This document shows positions 1 through 5,512 of a stretch of 5,531 nt of DNA, piece after piece. Positions within the stretch are counted from its first letter, which is position 1; the number at the start of each line of letters is the position of its first letter. This DNA comes from Actinomycetota bacterium. GTDB lineage: Bacteria > Actinomycetota > Thermoleophilia > Gaiellales > Gaiellaceae. A program made the position numbers and the translations under genes. Where the stretch lies: positions 3,916 to 9,446 of the forward strand of contig PMXT01000166.1 of the NCBI GenBank assembly GCA_003170995.1. Reading direction: 5' to 3'. Below the pieces are notes generated by a model. That model did not search any database and had not been told where the DNA came from. It saw nothing but the letters and a program-made list of their open reading frames with translations.

Positions 1-677
1 CCCGAGACGGTGGCGACGCCGTTTGTGAACGTGATCGCGGTGGCGGTGCCGAAATTGGTGGCCGTGCCCGAGCTGTTTGTCACTGTCGGCGTGAACGAGC
101 CGATCGTGCTGGCGCCGCTGAAGGTCAGGTTCTGCGAGTTGGTGTAGGTCGTCACGGTGATGCCGGCTGCGTCCTTGGCCGTAATCGTCAGGCTGTCGGC
201 CTGGCCGGCGGTTGGTGTTGTCGTTGCGGCCGCAAGCACGAAGTGGTCGAGCGCTCCGAATGCGAGGGTGACTTGTATCGCGGGCGAGCTCGCCGTCGCC
301 CAGGAGTGCCAGACGGCCGTCACTGTGTAGCTGTAGGTGCCTGCCGACAGTCCGCTGTCGGTGCAGGTCAGGACCGAAGTCGGCGCGGAGGAAGTTGGGC
401 AGTTGCCGCTTGGATTGCCACCGCCGCGCGTCACGTAGTAGGAGACTGCTCCCGATCCCGGTGGCGAGACCGCGCTCCAGGAGAGGGTCACTGTCCCGGC
501 CCCCGGCGTACCAATCACGTTGGTTGGGGCGGCAAGCGTTTCGGCATTGCCACTGCCGCCGCCCGATCCACTCGATGTCCAGTAGGCCTGGGCATTCGTG
601 GACGCCAGAAGTGCGACTGCCAACGCGGCCAGCGTGAAAAGACGCCTTCGCATTCCGGAAGCGGCCGCCTTGCTCAC
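1..677 (-). CDS. Secreted multidomain surface protein (fibronectin III-like + Ig-like), C-terminus outside the window
   Basis: Reading the minus strand from GTG 677 gives 225 uninterrupted codons to the window edge, so the gene is 3'-truncated here. The N-terminus (MSKAAASGMRRRLFTLAALA) is a signal peptide: RRR, a hydrophobic core to about residue 25, and an A-Q-A cleavage site at 29-31. It is followed directly by YWTSSGSGGGSG, the same junction motif as genes A-C. Residues about 48-138 read as a fibronectin type III-like domain (PTNVIGTPGAGTVTLSWSAV at the start, GTYSYTVTAV near the end) with Cys93 and Cys105 as a possible disulfide. From about 141 a second beta-sandwich begins (DHFVLAAATTTPTAGQADSL...ITAKDAAG), typical of repeated bacterial Ig-like modules, so more repeats probably follow. 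The GTG start overlaps the gene 5 stop in a GTGA and has GGGAG nine bases upstream (691-687). The internal ATG at 653 lacks a well-spaced Shine-Dalgarno. The function is unknown; an adhesin or structural surface role is inferred. Confidence 0.85.
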   Translation of the reverse strand, partial: MSKAAASGMRRRLFTLAALAVALLASTNAQAYWTSSGSGGGSGNAETLAAPTNVIGTPGAGTVTLSWSAVSPPGSGAVSYYVTRGGGNPSGNCPTSSAPTSVLTCTDSGLSAGTYSYTVTAVWHSWATASSPAIQVTLAFGALDHFVLAAATTTPTAGQADSLTITAKDAAGITVTTYTNSQNLTFSGASTIGSFTPTVTNSSGTATNFGTATAITFTNGVATVS

Positions 678-1828
678 GAGTGGGCGCTCCCGCTGAAGGT
701 CAAGACGAAGCTCTTGTCTTTGCAGACGTCCTGAGGGGTGGACAGGTTGAGGAAAGTAATCTGGGGCGCACGCGGAGCGCTTGTCAGCGTCACCTTCCCC
801 TTGGCCGGAACGGTGATCGGGTTGGCGCTCGAGGCGTTGGACTGAGTGATGGGCGAGAAATTGGTATCGCGATCGCAGCCCGAGGGAGTGCTGTCGGCCG
901 CCATGCTTACCGCGAGGTGAGTGACGTAGATCTTGCTGCTGTTGGGGTTGGTCAGCGTCAGCTCGATTGGCATGGTAAGACCGGGCTCGAGGCCGCTGAC
1001 GCCACCTGAGATGGTGAAGTCGGCGCCGGCGGTTGAGCCGCTGCCGCTGCCGCTGCCGCTTCCACCTGTCGAAACGGCAGGATCGGCGGATTTGACGACC
1101 TTGAAGTTGAGTTGCCTCGTCGAGTAGGCGGAGGAGATCTTGAGGCGATAGCTGCCGAGCACGATCTTCTTACCGCCGAAGAGTTTCTTGAGCCTCGCCG
1201 TCTTGACGCCGGTGAGATAGAGCCGCCTCGTATTCTTGGTCGTCTTGGCGTTCTTGACCAGCCGCCACTTCGAGCCCTTCTTGATGCTGAGCCGGTAGGC
1301 GAAGCTCTTGCTCGGTTTCGAGAAGCCGTAGATCAGCCTGACCGATTTCGCCGCTGCGACGGTGAAGCTCTTCTTGGTCAGACGGCCGGAAAAGGGAACG
1401 ATGTGAAAGCTGAGCAACTTGCGCCCGTCGGCGCAGGAAAGGGCGACATGGTATTTGCCGACCTTGACCGTCCTTCCGGCGAACAGTTTGCCCACGGTCA
1501 TCCTCTTCCGGCCCTTGAAGTTGCCCTTCTTGGTGACGCTCGCCACGGGCAGCCAGGCCGAGCCCGTTTTCTTGCTGAGCTGGTACGAGAAGCTCTTGCT
1601 CGGCCTCGGAAACTTGTAGATCAGCTTGACCGATCGCGTCTGAGAGGCCACGAACGAGGTCCAGGTCAGGCTGGCAGAGAACTTTTGGCTGGTCGTCGTG
1701 CTCGTAGCGGCGCCTGCCAGCGTAGAGGTGCAGGCGAGCAATAAGGCGCAGACTAGGCTGAGCAGGAGAGTCCGGCGGGTAAAGGTGAGCATTCGCTCGA
1801 GCGCTTCCGAACTGGCCGCCTCGGTCAT
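674..1828 (-). CDS. Exported protein with two tandem beta-domains and a C-terminal TasA-like two-cysteine module (gene 5)
   Basis: From ATG 1828 the product is 384 aa; an upstream in-frame ATG at 1936 would give 420 aa and ATG 1792 would give 372. ATG 1828 is preferred because GGGAA lies nine bases upstream, although 1792 (MLTFTRRTLLL) gives the most compact signal peptide. The hydrophobic segment LLLSLVCALLLA is followed by LAGA, a plausible signal-peptidase site. Two homologous modules of about 87-92 aa follow (about residues 58-144 and 154-245). Each has SVKLIY/SVRLIYGF, PSKSF.Y.LS, LF.G+ and G.Y.[VL]..S, resembling beta-sandwich repeats common in Thermoleophilia surface proteins. A GSGSGSGSG linker (about 251-268) leads to a C-terminal module (269-384) with Cys318 and Cys369 that resembles gene D (VSGLEPG, LTNP, PQDVCK). 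There is no sortase motif or C-terminal membrane segment. It is translationally coupled to gene 6. The exact function is not recognised; a surface-assembly component or adaptor is inferred. Confidence 0.8.
   Translation of the reverse strand: MTEAASSEALERMLTFTRRTLLLSLVCALLLACTSTLAGAATSTTTSQKFSASLTWTSFVASQTRSVKLIYKFPRPSKSFSYQLSKKTGSAWLPVASVTKKGNFKGRKRMTVGKLFAGRTVKVGKYHVALSCADGRKLLSFHIVPFSGRLTKKSFTVAAAKSVRLIYGFSKPSKSFAYRLSIKKGSKWRLVKNAKTTKNTRRLYLTGVKTARLKKLFGGKKIVLGSYRLKISSAYSTRQLNFKVVKSADPAVSTGGSGSGSGSGSTAGADFTISGGVSGLEPGLTMPIELTLTNPNSSKIYVTHLAVSMAADSTPSGCDRDTNFSPITQSNASSANPITVPAKGKVTLTSAPRAPQITFLNLSTPQDVCKDKSFVLTFSGSAHS
1037..1060. repeat. Hexanucleotide repeat (gccgct)x4 encoding the Ser-Gly linker
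   Basis: Four perfect copies of gccgct lie inside gene 5 and encode alternating Gly and Ser between the repeat modules and the C-terminal domain. The unit is six bases, so slippage would lengthen or shorten the linker without a frameshift. Confidence 0.8.
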
Positions 1829-1870
1829 TGGTGTGCATTCCCGCCGTAGGACAGGTCGAGAAGGAGAAAC

Positions 1871-1892
1871 GACGGCGAAAGAAGACGCCGCC
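1871..1892 (-). other. GC hairpin with pyrimidine-rich tail in the leader of gene 5
   Basis: On the minus strand GGCGGCG pairs with CGCCGTC (one G-U pair) around the 8-base loop TCTTCTTT, followed by GTTTCTCCTTCTC. It lies between the far upstream ATG (1936) and the preferred ATG (1828), so it would be in the 5' leader. It could act as a weak terminator or attenuator. The stem is short and the tail is not a clean U-tract, so function is uncertain. Confidence 0.3.
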
Positions 1893-1985
1893 GCTTGCTG
1901 CCTTTGGATGTTTCGCTTGTACGTCTCGCCTGTCATCTGTCTTCGGCCTTCTCGATTGCGCTTGATTGCTTGTTCCGGGATTTGG

Positions 1986-2015
1986 GCGGAGGGGCGACCG
2001 AGGCCGCCCCTCCGC
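1986..2015 (-). terminator. Perfect 11-bp hairpin downstream of gene D
   Basis: GCGGAGGGGCG (1986-1996) and CGCCCCTCCGC (2005-2015) are perfect inverted repeats around an 8-base loop. The hairpin starts 12 bases after the TAG of gene D. On the minus strand it is followed by CCCAAATCCC, which lacks a U-tract, so it may be an imperfect terminator or a 3'-end stabiliser that separates expression of A-D from genes 5 and 6. Confidence 0.6.
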
Positions 2016-2027
2016 TAACGCTGCGTA

Positions 2028-2495
2028 CTAGCTAGCTACGAGCGACAGGGTGATAACTGCGTTCTTGCACACGTCCTGATTCGTTGGTGTGGCCGGCTCG
2101 ATCATCGCGATCGTCCCCGTGAAGTTTTGGGACGCGCCTCCATTGAGCACGACCGGGCTCGCGATCGGGGGCGGGGTCGTGGTGAACCAAGTCGCCTGGC
2201 AATCGGTTGGCGCGATCGAAGCGATGTTGATCGCGACCGCGCTAAGCGACTGTTTGAAGGTCGCCGGGTTGGTCACATTGACGACTACGTTCTGAGCGGC
2301 CCCTCCGGGAACGAGGCCTGACACGGTGCCCGACTGTGCGACCGTGAGAGCCGAGCTGGTGCCGACTCCGGCCGAACCAGTGTTACTAGATCCACCGCTG
2401 GTGAAGTACGCATAAGCAACGCCGCTAGAGATAGCGAGCGCCACAACGACGACCGCCGCAAGTACGACCCGCTTCTTGCTGAGATGCTTCTTCAT
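2028..2495 (-). CDS. Small secreted TasA/camelysin-like protein, diverged fourth copy (gene D)
   Basis: A 155-aa protein. The start MKKHLSKKRVV matches genes A-C almost exactly and is preceded by AAGGAG at 2510-2505. The signal peptide has a KKHLSKKR n-region, a hydrophobic core VVLAAVVVVALAISSGV and an A-Y-A cleavage site, then YFTSGGSSNTGSAG. This junction resembles the AYFSD-type motif of TasA/camelysin-family proteins processed by SipW-type signal peptidases (family knowledge). Beyond about residue 45 the sequence differs from A-C but keeps the same plan: a VSGLVPGG segment, beta-strand-like VVVNVTNP, Cys99, Cys143 in DVCK, and a C-terminal TLSLVAS. That second half is closest to the C-terminal module of gene 5 in this window. 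No membrane anchor or sortase signal follows, so the mature protein is probably released or assembled outside the cell. It may be a minor or capping subunit beside A-C (inference). Confidence 0.85.
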   Translation of the reverse strand: MKKHLSKKRVVLAAVVVVALAISSGVAYAYFTSGGSSNTGSAGVGTSSALTVAQSGTVSGLVPGGAAQNVVVNVTNPATFKQSLSAVAINIASIAPTDCQATWFTTTPPPIASPVVLNGGASQNFTGTIAMIEPATPTNQDVCKNAVITLSLVAS

Positions 2496-2567
2496 TGTTG
2501 TTCTCTCCTTGGTTTAGAACTCTTGGTTTGGAACCGGTTCCTGAAATCGGTTTGCCGCTAGATGCCA
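2496..2567 (-). promoter_or_regulatory. Conserved leader of gene D, with extended palindrome and duplicated pre-SD segment
   Basis: It contains the TGGCATCTAGCGGCAA box (2567-2552) and the palindrome GAACCGGTTC (2531-2540), extended here to 12 bp as GGAACCGGTTCC (2530-2541). A short near-duplication follows, GTTCCAAACCAAGAG then GTTCTAAACCAAGGAG, which places an SD-like AAGAG ahead of the true AAGGAG (2510-2505). This makes it about 15 bases longer than the leaders of A-C. Confidence 0.6.
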
Positions 2568-2578
2568 GGCTCCGTTGG

Positions 2579-3055
2579 TTAGGTGCTCGTGACGTTGAGT
2601 GTCAGCGGCTTGCCCTTGCAATTGCCTTGGTCGATAGCCGCGAGATCAGTCCAGGACAGAGTCCCGCTGCCGGTGAGAGTGAGGAGGGCGGCTCCGTTGG
2701 GAACCACCGTATTCGAGGTCACCGTCGGCATCGCGAACTGACCGCCGGTGGTAGTGAGCATCGTCTGGCACGGCCCGTCCGATGACGTGACGGAACCGAA
2801 GACGATGGTTGCCACGTAACCGTCTGTGCCGGTCGCGTTGTCGGCCGTGAACGTCACGGTCTTGCTACCGCCGGGGTAGATTCCCACGGGGAAGGTGGCG
2901 TGGAGCACGAGGGAGCCGGACGGGGTCGCAGCGTTAGCCGTTCCACTGCCCGCGCCGGTGCTTGTCCAGTACGCATAAGCAACGCCGCTTGCGATAGCGA
3001 GCGTCAGGACGATCGCCGAAACGACGACTCGCCGCTTGGATAGATGCTTCTTCAT
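2579..3055 (-). CDS. Small secreted TasA/camelysin-like protein, tandem copy 3 (gene C)
   Basis: A 158-aa protein whose first 47 residues are identical to gene A: n-region KKHLSKRR, hydrophobic core VVVSAIVLTLAIASGV, A-Y-A at 26-28, then YWTSTGAGSGTANA. By hand alignment it is about 85% identical to A over its length. The mature part has IYPGGSKTVTFTADNATG (59-76, beta-rich), Cys96 in PCQTML and Cys146 in NCKGKPLTLNVTST, a probable disulfide pair. AAGGAG sits at 3070-3065, nine bases before the ATG. It is unusual among the three in having SDGP before Cys96 and KP after CKG. No catalytic motif is visible. A secreted structural subunit is the best reading; the function is inferred. Confidence 0.87.
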   Translation of the reverse strand: MKKHLSKRRVVVSAIVLTLAIASGVAYAYWTSTGAGSGTANAATPSGSLVLHATFPVGIYPGGSKTVTFTADNATGTDGYVATIVFGSVTSSDGPCQTMLTTTGGQFAMPTVTSNTVVPNGAALLTLTGSGTLSWTDLAAIDQGNCKGKPLTLNVTST

Positions 3056-3112
3056 TGTTGTCGTCTCCTTGTTTTGAACCGGTTCTTAAATCCAGGTTGC
3101 CGCTAGATGCCA
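3056..3112 (-). promoter_or_regulatory. Conserved leader of gene C (box + GAACCGGTTC palindrome + SD)
   Basis: TGGCATCTAGCGGCAA (3112-3097), an 11-base spacer, the perfect palindrome GAACCGGTTC (3076-3085), and AAGGAG (3070-3065). On the minus strand TTGGCA followed 17 bases later by TTTAAG could be a weak promoter, so each copy may have its own start; this is speculative. Confidence 0.55.
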
Positions 3113-3123
3113 AGATCCGTTGG

Positions 3124-3594
3124 TTAGGTGCTCGTGACGTTGAGTGTCAGCGCCGCGCCCTTGCAGTCGCTCTGATTGACGGCGAGATTGGTCCAGACCA
3201 GAGTCCCGCTGCCGGTGAGAGGGAGGCCGCCGGCTCCGTTGGGAACCACCGTGTTCGAGGTAACAGTGGCCATAGTGAACTGGCCGGGGTTGGCAGTGAG
3301 CATCGTCTGGCACAACCCGGTTGACGTGACGGAACCGAAGACGATGGTTGCCACGTAACCGTCTGTGCCCGTCGCGTTGTCGGCCGTGAACGTCACGGTC
3401 TTGCTACCGCCGGGGTAGATCCCCGTGAAGCCGGTGGCGTGAAGGGTGAGCGTGCCGGACGGAGTGGCAGCGTTAGCCGTTCCACTGCCCGCGCCGGTGC
3501 TCGTCCAGTACGCATAAGCAACGCCGCTCGCGATCGCGAGCATCAGGACGATCGCCGAAACGACGACTCGCCGCTTGGATAGATGCTTCTTCAT
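3124..3594 (-). CDS. Small secreted TasA/camelysin-like protein, tandem copy 2 (gene B)
   Basis: A 156-aa protein from ATG 3594. An in-frame ATG at 3651 would add 19 residues, but those are encoded by the leader shared with A, C and D and would bury the AAGGAG (3609-3604), so 3594 is chosen. The signal peptide is identical to A and C apart from Thr18 to Met. The mature region keeps IYPGGSKTVTFTADNATGTD, Cys95 in LCQTML and Cys144 in DCKGAALTLNVTST. It differs from its sisters in HATGFTG (they have HATFP.G) and in LVWTNLAVNQ (they have LSWTDLAA.DQ). It lies 68 bp upstream of gene C and 67 bp downstream of gene A, all in the same orientation. The function is inferred to be the same as A and C. 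Confidence 0.87.
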   Translation of the reverse strand: MKKHLSKRRVVVSAIVLMLAIASGVAYAYWTSTGAGSGTANAATPSGTLTLHATGFTGIYPGGSKTVTFTADNATGTDGYVATIVFGSVTSTGLCQTMLTANPGQFTMATVTSNTVVPNGAGGLPLTGSGTLVWTNLAVNQSDCKGAALTLNVTST

Positions 3595-3650
3595 TGTTGT
3601 CGTCTCCTTGTTTTGAACCGGTTCGATAAATGGGTTGCCGCTAGATGCCA
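3595..3650 (-). promoter_or_regulatory. Conserved leader of gene B (box + GAACCGGTTC palindrome + SD)
   Basis: TGGCATCTAGCGGCAA (3650-3635), a 10-base spacer, GAACCGGTTC (3615-3624), and AAGGAG (3609-3604) nine bases before the ATG. On the minus strand TTGGCA and TATCGA are separated by 17 bases, a weak promoter-like pair. Confidence 0.55.
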
Positions 3651-3661
3651 AGATCCGTTGG

Positions 3662-4135
3662 TTAGGTGCTCGTGACGTTGAGTGTCAGAGCCGCGCCCTT
3701 GCAAGCGCTCTGATCAACAGCGGCGAGGTCGGTCCAGGACAGAGTCCCGCTGCCGGTGAGAGCGAAGAGGCTCGCCCCGGAGGGAACCACCGTGTTCGAA
3801 GTCACTGTCGGCATGGCGAACTGGCCGGCGTTGGCAGCGAGCATCGTCTGGCACGTCCCGGTTGATGTGACGGAACCGAAAACGATGGTTGCCACGTACC
3901 CGTTTGCCCCCGTCGCGTTGTCGGCCGTGAAAGTCACACTCTTGTTACCGCCGGGGTAGATCCCCGCGGGGAAGGTGGCATGGAGCGTGAGGGTGCCGGA
4001 CGGGGTGGCAGCGTTAGCCGTTCCACTGCCCGCGCCGGTGCTCGTCCAGTACGCATAAGCAACGCCGCTTGCGATAGCGAGCGTCAGGACGATCGCCGAA
4101 ACGACGACTCGCCGCTTGGATAGATGCTTCTTCAT
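3662..4135 (-). CDS. Small secreted TasA/camelysin-like protein, tandem copy 1, first gene of the cluster (gene A)
   Basis: A 157-aa protein. The signal peptide has KKHLSKRR, a hydrophobic core at 10-25 and an A-Y-A cleavage site at 26-28. The mature N-terminus YWTSTGAGSGTANAATPSG resembles the aromatic-rich junction of TasA/camelysin proteins. The mature chain of about 129 aa is rich in Thr, Gly, Ala and Val with alternating beta-strand patterns. It has one Cys pair (95 and 145), no Trp/His/Asp cluster suggesting catalysis, no membrane anchor and no LPXTG. AGGAG at 4149-4145 precedes the ATG by nine bases. It is the promoter-proximal member of the array. SipW-type processing and a fibre-subunit role are inferences from the junction motif and the tandem copies. 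No signal peptidase gene lies in this window. Confidence 0.87.
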   Translation of the reverse strand: MKKHLSKRRVVVSAIVLTLAIASGVAYAYWTSTGAGSGTANAATPSGTLTLHATFPAGIYPGGNKSVTFTADNATGANGYVATIVFGSVTSTGTCQTMLAANAGQFAMPTVTSNTVVPSGASLFALTGSGTLSWTDLAAVDQSACKGAALTLNVTST

Positions 4136-4191
4136 TGTTGGCGTCTCCTAGTTTTGAACCGGTTCGGAAAATGGGTTGCCGCTAGATGCCA
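4136..4191 (-). promoter_or_regulatory. Conserved leader of gene A (box + GAACCGGTTC palindrome + SD)
   Basis: TGGCATCTAGCGGCAA (4191-4176), a 10-base spacer, GAACCGGTTC (4156-4165), and AGGAG (4149-4145). No gene of this family lies upstream, so the block is a leader belonging to each gene and not a leftover of a preceding coding sequence. Confidence 0.6.
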
Positions 4192-4264: not shown

Positions 4265-4290
4265 ATGTAGTTGCTTTTTGGGTGATGCCG

Positions 4291-4370
4291 CATACGCGCC
4301 CCTTGGGTTTGCCGCTGCGCGTTAGTCGGATTTTCGGCCCGTTTTCGCGTATGTTCATAACCCAAAGGGG
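4291..4370. other. Two crossing inverted repeats (pseudoknot-order or mutually exclusive stems)
   Basis: CATACGCG (4291-4298) is complementary to CGCGTATG (4346-4353). CCCCTTGGGTT (4299-4309) is complementary to AACCCAAAGGGG (4359-4370) with one bulged A. The order a-b-a'-b' means the stems cross. TTTGGGT (4277-4283) could also compete for ACCCAAA (4360-4366). It lies between the two divergent genes, so it may be an RNA fold or an operator region. Confidence 0.4.
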
Positions 4371-4383
4371 TGATTGAGCCGTA

Positions 4384-4452: not shown

Positions 4453-4989
4453 ATGGCCTCCTACGCGCTATCGGCGATCGGCCGCGACCGGCCCGGGATA
4501 GTCGCCGAGGTGACGGGAACGTTGCTTCGCCACGGCGTCAATCTCGACGATTCGCAGATGGCGATCCTGGACGGTTACTTCGCGATGATGCTGGTGCTCG
4601 AGACCTCCGAGGCGACCGACCTGGAGGCGTTGCGCGCCGATCTCGAGCGCTCGCGCGACACACTTGAGCTGGGGGCGATCTCACTCTCCGAGATCGACGC
4701 GGCCCAGGCGCGCATCGACGAGCCTTCGCACGTGATCACGCTTTACGGCGCCGATCACCCCGGAATCGTGAACGCCGTAACCTCGGCGCTGGCGGAGAGA
4801 AGCGTCAACATCACCGATCTCGACACCCATCTCGTCGGCGACGAGAGCGAGCCCGCCTACATGATGATTCTCGAAGTCGCCCTGCCTGACGGTTTATTGG
4901 GCAACGAGCTCGAGGTCTTTCTGCGCGAGATCGCGCGTGAGCAGAAGCTCGAGCTTTCAGTTCGCGCGCTCGACCAGGTGTCACTCTAG
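4453..4989 (+). CDS. Two-ACT-domain protein, GcvR-like regulator
   Basis: A 178-aa cytoplasmic protein made of two ACT domains, at about residues 4-80 and 93-172. Each opens with the hallmark loop: IGRDRPGIVAEVTGTL (9-24) and GADHPGIVNAVTSAL (99-113). A strand and helix follow (GVNLDDSQMAIL; SVNITDLDTHLVG). ACT domains bind small ligands, usually amino acids. Stand-alone double-ACT proteins of this length match the GcvR family, known in enterobacteria to control the glycine cleavage activator GcvA. No DNA-binding or catalytic domain is present, so it would act by ligand sensing or protein contact; the actual partner here is unknown. ATG 4453 is the only in-frame ATG after the upstream stop at 4375. 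There is no Shine-Dalgarno, consistent with leaderless translation. The deformylase gene follows 16 bp downstream, suggesting an operon. Confidence 0.85.
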   Translation: MASYALSAIGRDRPGIVAEVTGTLLRHGVNLDDSQMAILDGYFAMMLVLETSEATDLEALRADLERSRDTLELGAISLSEIDAAQARIDEPSHVITLYGADHPGIVNAVTSALAERSVNITDLDTHLVGDESEPAYMMILEVALPDGLLGNELEVFLREIAREQKLELSVRALDQVSL

Positions 4990-5005
4990 GCAGCGCCCCC
5001 GTCTC

Positions 5006-5512
5006 TTGGCTGCTCGGCAGATCCTCCGTCTTCCCGACCCGGCCCTGAAGCGAGTGGCTGCCGAGGCTAGCGCGGACAAGTGGGACTGGGTCGAGCGTGT
5101 CGCCGGCGACCTGATCGAGACGATGCACAGCTTTCCGCGCTGCGTGGGCCTGGCGGCTCCGCAGATCGGCGAGTCAATACGCATGATCGTCGTCGATGTC
5201 TCGCTCCACCCCAAGGGCGACCCGAGCGCCCGGGAGATCCTGCTCGTCAATCCGCGCGTTGTTTTCGCAACCGGATCTGAGGTCGCGCGCGAGGGCTGCC
5301 TGAGCGTGCCCGAGTTCACCGCCGATGTTCGCCGCGCCAGCGAGGTTGTCGTCGCGGGACTGACGCGCGCGGGGGAGCCGTGGACGATCGAGGCGAGCGG
5401 TTTCGAGGCGCGCGCCCTCCAGCACGAGATCGACCACCTCGACGGTCTGCTCTTCCTCGATCGCGTGGAATCGCTCTCGCGTGACGTCTTTCGGCGCAAG
5501 AACTACGGCTAA
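5006..5512 (+). CDS. def: Peptide deformylase
   Basis: Removes the N-formyl group from nascent proteins; a cytosolic metalloenzyme acting at the ribosome exit. From TTG 5006 it is 168 aa, a normal family length, and begins MAARQILRLPDPALKRVA, the usual deformylase N-terminus. A longer reading from GTG 4937 would overlap the ACT gene by 53 bp and add 23 non-family residues, so it is disfavoured. All three motifs are present: GLAAPQIG (48-55), EGCLSVP (96-102, Cys98 metal ligand) and QHEIDHLDG (139-147, His140 and His144 metal ligands, Glu141 catalytic). The residue at the first glycine of the canonical GxGLAAPQ is Cys (CVGLAAPQ). The Shine-Dalgarno is weak (AGG at 4988-4990, 15 bases away), so translation may be coupled to termination of the ACT gene. 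No methionyl-tRNA formyltransferase gene is in view. Confidence 0.92.
   Translation: MAARQILRLPDPALKRVAAEASADKWDWVERVAGDLIETMHSFPRCVGLAAPQIGESIRMIVVDVSLHPKGDPSAREILLVNPRVVFATGSEVAREGCLSVPEFTADVRRASEVVVAGLTRAGEPWTIEASGFEARALQHEIDHLDGLLFLDRVESLSRDVFRRKNYG

Follow-up and report, generated by a model that had tools for sequence, protein, structure and literature searches.

A window of 5,531 nucleotides (bases 3916-9446 of contig C147, PMXT01000166.1, in the 1.91-Mb, 200-contig, 84% complete genome G000 of a soil Actinomycetota bacterium) carries on its minus strand, in this order, four tandem genes for small exported proteins, subunits A, B, C and D, then gene 5 and gene 6, which encode larger exported proteins. 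On balance we favour reading this locus as a fibre operon that works like that of Bacillus TasA, for which we infer both polymerisation of the subunits and strand exchange between them. A-D would be exported and cut at the junction between A and YW by a signal peptidase of the SipW type, which is likely encoded at the same locus, and the mature proteins would polymerise outside the cell, the N-terminal strand of each entering the open beta-sandwich of the next. More tentatively, the operon may encode the polarity and both ends of such a fibre: A-D would each have a donor strand and an acceptor groove, gene 5 would supply a membrane-held base that only accepts, and gene 6 a giant adhesin tip that only donates.

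Subunit genes, junction motif and signal peptidase

Subunit A (3662..4135, minus strand, 157 amino acids) is an exported protein with an AYWTS junction after the signal peptide, a predicted beta-sandwich core and a conserved cysteine pair (94, 144), as judged from its open reading frame (ORF), an AlphaFold model and the family alignment. ORFs and identity comparisons define B (3124..3594, minus strand, 156 amino acids) and C (2579..3055, minus strand, 158 amino acids), with amino-acid identities of 85.9% for A/B, 86.0% for A/C and 84.6% for B/C. Since dN/dS among A-C is 0.35-0.50 (dS 0.20-0.24), these are genes under purifying selection. D (2028..2495, minus strand, 155 amino acids) is 34-39% identical to A-C, or 25-30% over the mature part alone. 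The alignment and profile of the subunit family, A1 (61 sequences), matched it at E=6.6e-39 over positions 1-152, D itself being among the 61 rows. We read D as a diverged subunit that shares its junction and core with A-C; the special capping role suggested for it in the first-pass annotation of the window is not supported. That annotation had also described three almost identical small exported proteins, a diverged fourth and two larger exported ones on a single strand; ORFs and identities bear this out, except that "almost identical" is slightly strong at 85-86% and that the window holds only part of gene 6.

Homologues of A numbered 173 at E<=0.001, and one 15.6-kb contig carries identical copies of both A and gene 5. 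The subunit of a Gaiellaceae bacterium is 85% identical to A, and the other relatives of the locus that bear names are metagenome-assembled genomes of Actinomycetota from peat. Among relatives in the genus the subunit copy number varies, with three genes in G004, two in G001, one in G005 and none at E<=0.001 in G002 and G003.

As had been noticed at the outset, the junction reads AYWTS in gene 6 and in A-C and AYFTS in D, and gene 5 has none. An aromatic junction of the type known from TasA and camelysin, AY[WFV][TSA], is present in 59 of the 61 members of A1, and the cleavage site was predicted from it. For surveys of relatives, 37 loci were assembled from every genome with hits in the subunit searches, leaving out repeats of the same contig (G219 gives two loci); together with L019, L098 and L099 they yielded 4109 ORFs. 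The pattern A[YF][WF][TAS] after a hydrophobic stretch was found in 55 of these, mainly family subunits and the large proteins adjoining them. No LPXTG-like sorting signal, the mark of a sortase-assembled pilus, was seen by eye in A-D.

The search for a SipW-like signal peptidase, called for in the first-pass annotation, succeeded both in the genome and, through a contig overlap, at the locus. A single protein of 553 amino acids matched TIGR02228 above the cut-off of 51.85 (58.2-61.4 bits). By eye it reads SMEP...VLHRI, with Ser-His rather than Ser-Lys, as in the SipW (endoplasmic-reticulum) type, and it scored 30.3 bits against TIGR02227, the usual bacterial model, under the cut-off of 47. 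Its gene sits at one end of contig C174, and the 23 bases that close this contig are identical to those with which the window contig opens. Because this overlap was found nowhere else in the genome, with up to three mismatches allowed, we place the SipW gene at the A-D locus; the two contigs would abut, and the peptidase would start about 104 bases after the gene for a 119-amino-acid protein that follows gene 6. G001 has the same arrangement on one contig, the one that carries its subunits, where gene 6, the 119-amino-acid protein and, 108 nucleotides on, the SipW start are reached at the contig end. The last 159 bases of that contig, a hairpin and the start of the peptidase gene, recur on another contig with other small exported proteins upstream, so G001 probably has two SipW copies. 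At locus L034 the module is followed on the same contig, some 2 kb further on, by a SipW-type gene (86.5 bits against TIGR02228); it scored 78.1 bits against the Bacillus SipW model, below that model's cut-off of 190.

The larger partners and the conserved gene order

Gene 5 (674..1828, minus strand) encodes 384 amino acids, with a longer start possible at 1936. It is built of an N-terminal hydrophobic helix, two lysine-rich repeats, a Gly-Ser linker and a C-terminal subunit domain. This domain, acceptor-like in type, occupies 692..1072 on the minus strand (G000:C147:4607-4987) and matches A1 positions 32-151 at E=3.6e-11. Because the match begins at profile position 32, gene 5 ends in a subunit domain that lacks the N-terminal segment; A1 likewise matches the C-terminal part of gene 5 in G001 and G004. 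The AlphaFold model (mean predicted local distance difference test, pLDDT, 85.9) has an N-terminal helix followed by a series of beta domains. Homologues of gene 5 (114 among 7988 candidates scored) come in three builds with the C-terminal domain in common, preceded by two lysine-rich repeats, by a hydrophobic helix and linker, or by a helix and Ig-like repeats. Gene 5 had been proposed as an anchor, and a subunit domain fits that role: the protein may form the acceptor-only end of the fibre, its N-terminal part being predicted to fix it in the membrane or wall.

Gene 6 (3..677, minus strand) is open at the window edge, which leaves the first 225 of its 1197 amino acids in view, namely the signal peptide, the AYWTS junction and repeats. 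It continues beyond the window to L005:999 for the full 1197 amino acids, the contig being interrupted by a run of N. The repeats after the junction can be read as Ig-like (FlgD_ig, 19.2 bits, below the cut-off of 27), and the C-terminus is an RCC1 propeller (RCC1-like domain PF25390, 1e-98, in L005:999-3785). With a junction and no subunit domain, gene 6 would be the donor-only end that plugs the other end of the fibre, exposing the repeats and propeller as an adhesin. The start of gene 6 overlaps the stop of gene 5 by 4 nucleotides in 7 of 7 loci examined.

To examine the complementary make-up of the two proteins, separate profiles of the core domain and of the 20 residues that follow the cleavage Ala were cut from the family profile and searched in the 4109 ORFs. 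Both pieces were found in 26 ORFs, and the N-terminal piece alone in two, both of them gene-6 proteins (L024 and L034). The core profile matched 7 of 9 gene-5 proteins and none of 9 gene-6 proteins; of the two gene-5 proteins left without a match, the one in L024 is interrupted by N and the one in L032 is short and degenerate. The N-terminal profile matched 2 of 9 gene-6 and 0 of 9 gene-5 proteins, and by eye the junction is visible in 8 of 9 gene-6 relatives.

The neighbourhood of A-D and genes 5 and 6 proved to be conserved in relatives. In 12 of the 37 loci a subunit is adjoined by a gene-5-type protein whose N-terminus is readable and has no junction (L005, L020, L021, L025, L031, L034, L144, L146, L148, L151, L152 and L155); a thirteenth, L024, has such a neighbour with its N-terminus unread, and in L022 and L149 the adjoining gene-5-type protein carries the junction. 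In 10 of the 37 (L005, L020, L021, L024, L025, L031, L034, L144, L148 and L155) a subunit is clearly followed by a junction-less protein of the gene-5 type and then by a large junction protein, the third gene being cut by the contig end in L144 and a further subunit lying between in L148. This order is ambiguous in five (L022, L023, L032, L146 and L149). Since a phylum-wide sample had a subunit at E<=1e-8 in 14 of 396 genomes, our own included, the system is patchy in the phylum.

Upstream sequences suggest shared control of these genes. The palindrome GAACCGGTTC stands before A (4156..4165, 20 nucleotides ahead of the start), B (3615..3624), C (3076..3085) and D (2531..2540, 35 nucleotides ahead), and these are four of the five copies in the whole genome; the fifth is at G000:C102:18978. 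Among relatives, both subunit genes of G001, two of the three in G004 and the single one in G005 have it ahead of them, and the third G004 gene is preceded by its 8-base core. A 97-bp element upstream of A, at 4277..4373 (minus strand), is repeated with 77% identity at L005:506-602, before the 119-amino-acid protein, and also precedes the subunit genes of G001, G004 and G005. It was further seen beside a gene-6-like protein in G002:C27.

The 119-amino-acid protein that follows gene 6 is itself exported and has a FAYTNT junction. Small exported proteins with FAYTN or AYTSA junctions cluster around the SipW gene (L005:59-418, L019:11288-11677, L019:11749-12366 and L098), and one member of this family carries RTX calcium repeats. 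Convergent with gene 6, on the plus strand at L005 ~770-985, is a remnant that we take to resemble the C-terminus of a CAP/SCP-domain secreted protein. At 4453-5512 the window holds ordinary, divergent genes for an ACT-domain protein and a peptide deformylase.

Subunit model, evidence against the proposed fibre, and alternatives

In the AlphaFold model of A (mean pLDDT 82.8, core blocks >90), six strands and one helix are predicted with high confidence from residue 49 on, and residues 31-50 are mostly coil (block means 68-76). On this model the subunit is a beta-sandwich whose mature N-terminus is only loosely predicted; as a monomer prediction this fits a subunit with its N-terminal segment lying outside the fold, and the fold matches are weak.

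Several results weigh against a TasA-like fibre. Foldseek returned no match in the Protein Data Bank (PDB) for A at E<=0.001, and A-D matched no Pfam or NCBIfam family above cut-off. PF12389, the TasA/camelysin family, gave no match to A-D at E<=1 and none in the genome at E<=0.001. It was matched weakly by 7 of the 61 A1 members, at a best E of 8.9e-4, and the match inspected in detail (P0044) scored 16.6 bits, below the cut-off of 22.5. Compared with a profile of 110 TasA relatives, A1 reached a probability of 47.7 with signal peptides and 1.1 with mature parts. Matches of the full subunit profile to AbpX were weak (E ~0.6), ranked under chance-like matches, and were gone when the mature-only profile was used. 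Glycine is abundant in the presumed donor segment, TSTGAGSGTANAATPS, where the large, spaced hydrophobic residues of TasA (F29, I32, F39) are missing. Sequence does not place A-D formally in the TasA/camelysin family, and their mature parts lack a profile match to TasA.

The donor/acceptor split has weaknesses as well. The core alone was found in 45 ORFs at the thresholds used, which include the seven gene-5 proteins, and many of the 45 are ordinary subunits by place and length; the short N-terminal profile overlooks the junction of many ordinary subunits. Because it also misses 7 of 9 gene-6 proteins, including that of the window, the split rests on motif inspection more than on scores.

The distribution of the peptidase is likewise uneven. 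A SipW gene was not found at the locus in G004, G005 and most other loci, where it is elsewhere or undetected. Several subunit-bearing genomes have no detectable SipW; one of them is G004, which at 93% completeness has the locus and a TIGR02228 match of the Lys type. Across the order, a TIGR02228 match was found in 12 of 18 subunit-bearing genomes and 46 of 111 others (one-sided Fisher 0.041), or above cut-off in 11 of 18 and 39 of 111 (Fisher 0.034). With the Lys-type match of G004 left out, the figures were 11 of 18 and 46 of 111 (Fisher 0.097). These values are uncorrected for kinship, and co-occurrence over the order is weak.

The alternative that survives best, possible although we doubt it, is that A-D are SipW-processed surface proteins, monomeric or packed as a coat or matrix filler, in which the junction marks an export class only and genes 5 and 6 are independent proteins that share a domain and a promoter. 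That export class is indeed broad, as some Arthrobacter relatives bear names such as "SipW-cognate class signal peptide"; gene 6 carries the junction without a subunit domain; and in G004:C23 the 97-bp element stands ahead of a collagen-like exported protein as well, as it does in G005:C81 ahead of the start of this protein, which the contig end truncates. Set against this, the three-gene order in 10 of 37 loci, the overlap of genes 5 and 6 in all 7 loci examined and the occurrence of the junction in gene 6 but of the core in gene 5 suggest one assembly.

Fibres formed without strand exchange, held by covalent linkage or by complete Ig-like domains packed side by side, seem unlikely. The conserved cysteine pair could give a stable closed domain and the putative donor strand is rich in glycine, yet A-D have no LPXTG-type tail by eye and their chains stop right after the last strand. 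That A-D are camelysin-type proteases or other enzymes is very improbable, the pointer to it being the weak matches of those 7 of 61 A1 members to a Pfam model named after the camelysin metallo-endopeptidase. As to the outcomes named beforehand as speaking against a fibre locus, none occurred: neither an enzymatic fold nor an unrelated family was assigned, a SipW-like peptidase was found, and the neighbourhood is conserved.

Comparison with known fibre systems

Among the entries listed by our literature search, which left most subscription papers outside its coverage, none dealt with such a system in Actinomycetota in its title or the opening of its abstract. NCBIfam describes SipW-cognate classes (TIGR04088 and TIGR04090) that have the signal peptide class in common with A-D, and these match only 1 and 2 of the 61 members, at best E values of 0.047 and 0.0042. 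The TasA papers describe the archaeal bundling pili AbpA/AbpX as relatives of TasA that form donor-strand filaments; the profile matches of A-D to them (E ~0.6) were lost without the signal peptide.

The closest parallel is with TasA-TapA-SipW of B. subtilis, as set out in the accessible text of two papers (PMC9674648, PMC10151520). There, the strand that follows the signal peptide of TasA completes the sandwich of the next subunit, the donor strand being residues 28-38, directly after the cleavage site (PMC9674648), and TapA has a complete Ig fold that donates its N-terminal strand and is unable to accept one (PMC10151520). Common to both systems are a small exported beta-sandwich subunit (predicted here) with an aromatic residue after the cleavage Ala, a SipW-type peptidase at the locus and an adjoining accessory exported protein. 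Unlike TasA, A-D show no convincing homology in their mature parts, which are about 129 residues long as against 234 in TasA, and they comprise four tandem subunits with a conserved cysteine pair. Unlike B. subtilis SipW, the peptidase of our genome bears a C-terminal part resembling DUF5305 (28.2 bits, just under the cut-off of 29).

The TasA-CalY-CapP system of B. cereus, so far as the available portion of PMC13082335 describes it, resembles the present locus in that it has at least two subunits and a helper as third protein, is processed by SipW and needs no sortase. CapP differs from gene 5: its N-domain is DUF4047, its C-domain is disordered, and it is not fused to a subunit domain. An acceptor-only gene 5 and a giant junction-bearing gene 6 are, within the same accessible text of PMC9674648 and PMC10151520, not described for the tapA operon. 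If our reading is true, TasA-like fibres would extend to a large, poorly cultured soil phylum, the Actinomycetota, with subunits beyond the reach of the TasA profile, and genes 5 and 6 would be named candidates for the base and tip of the fibre.

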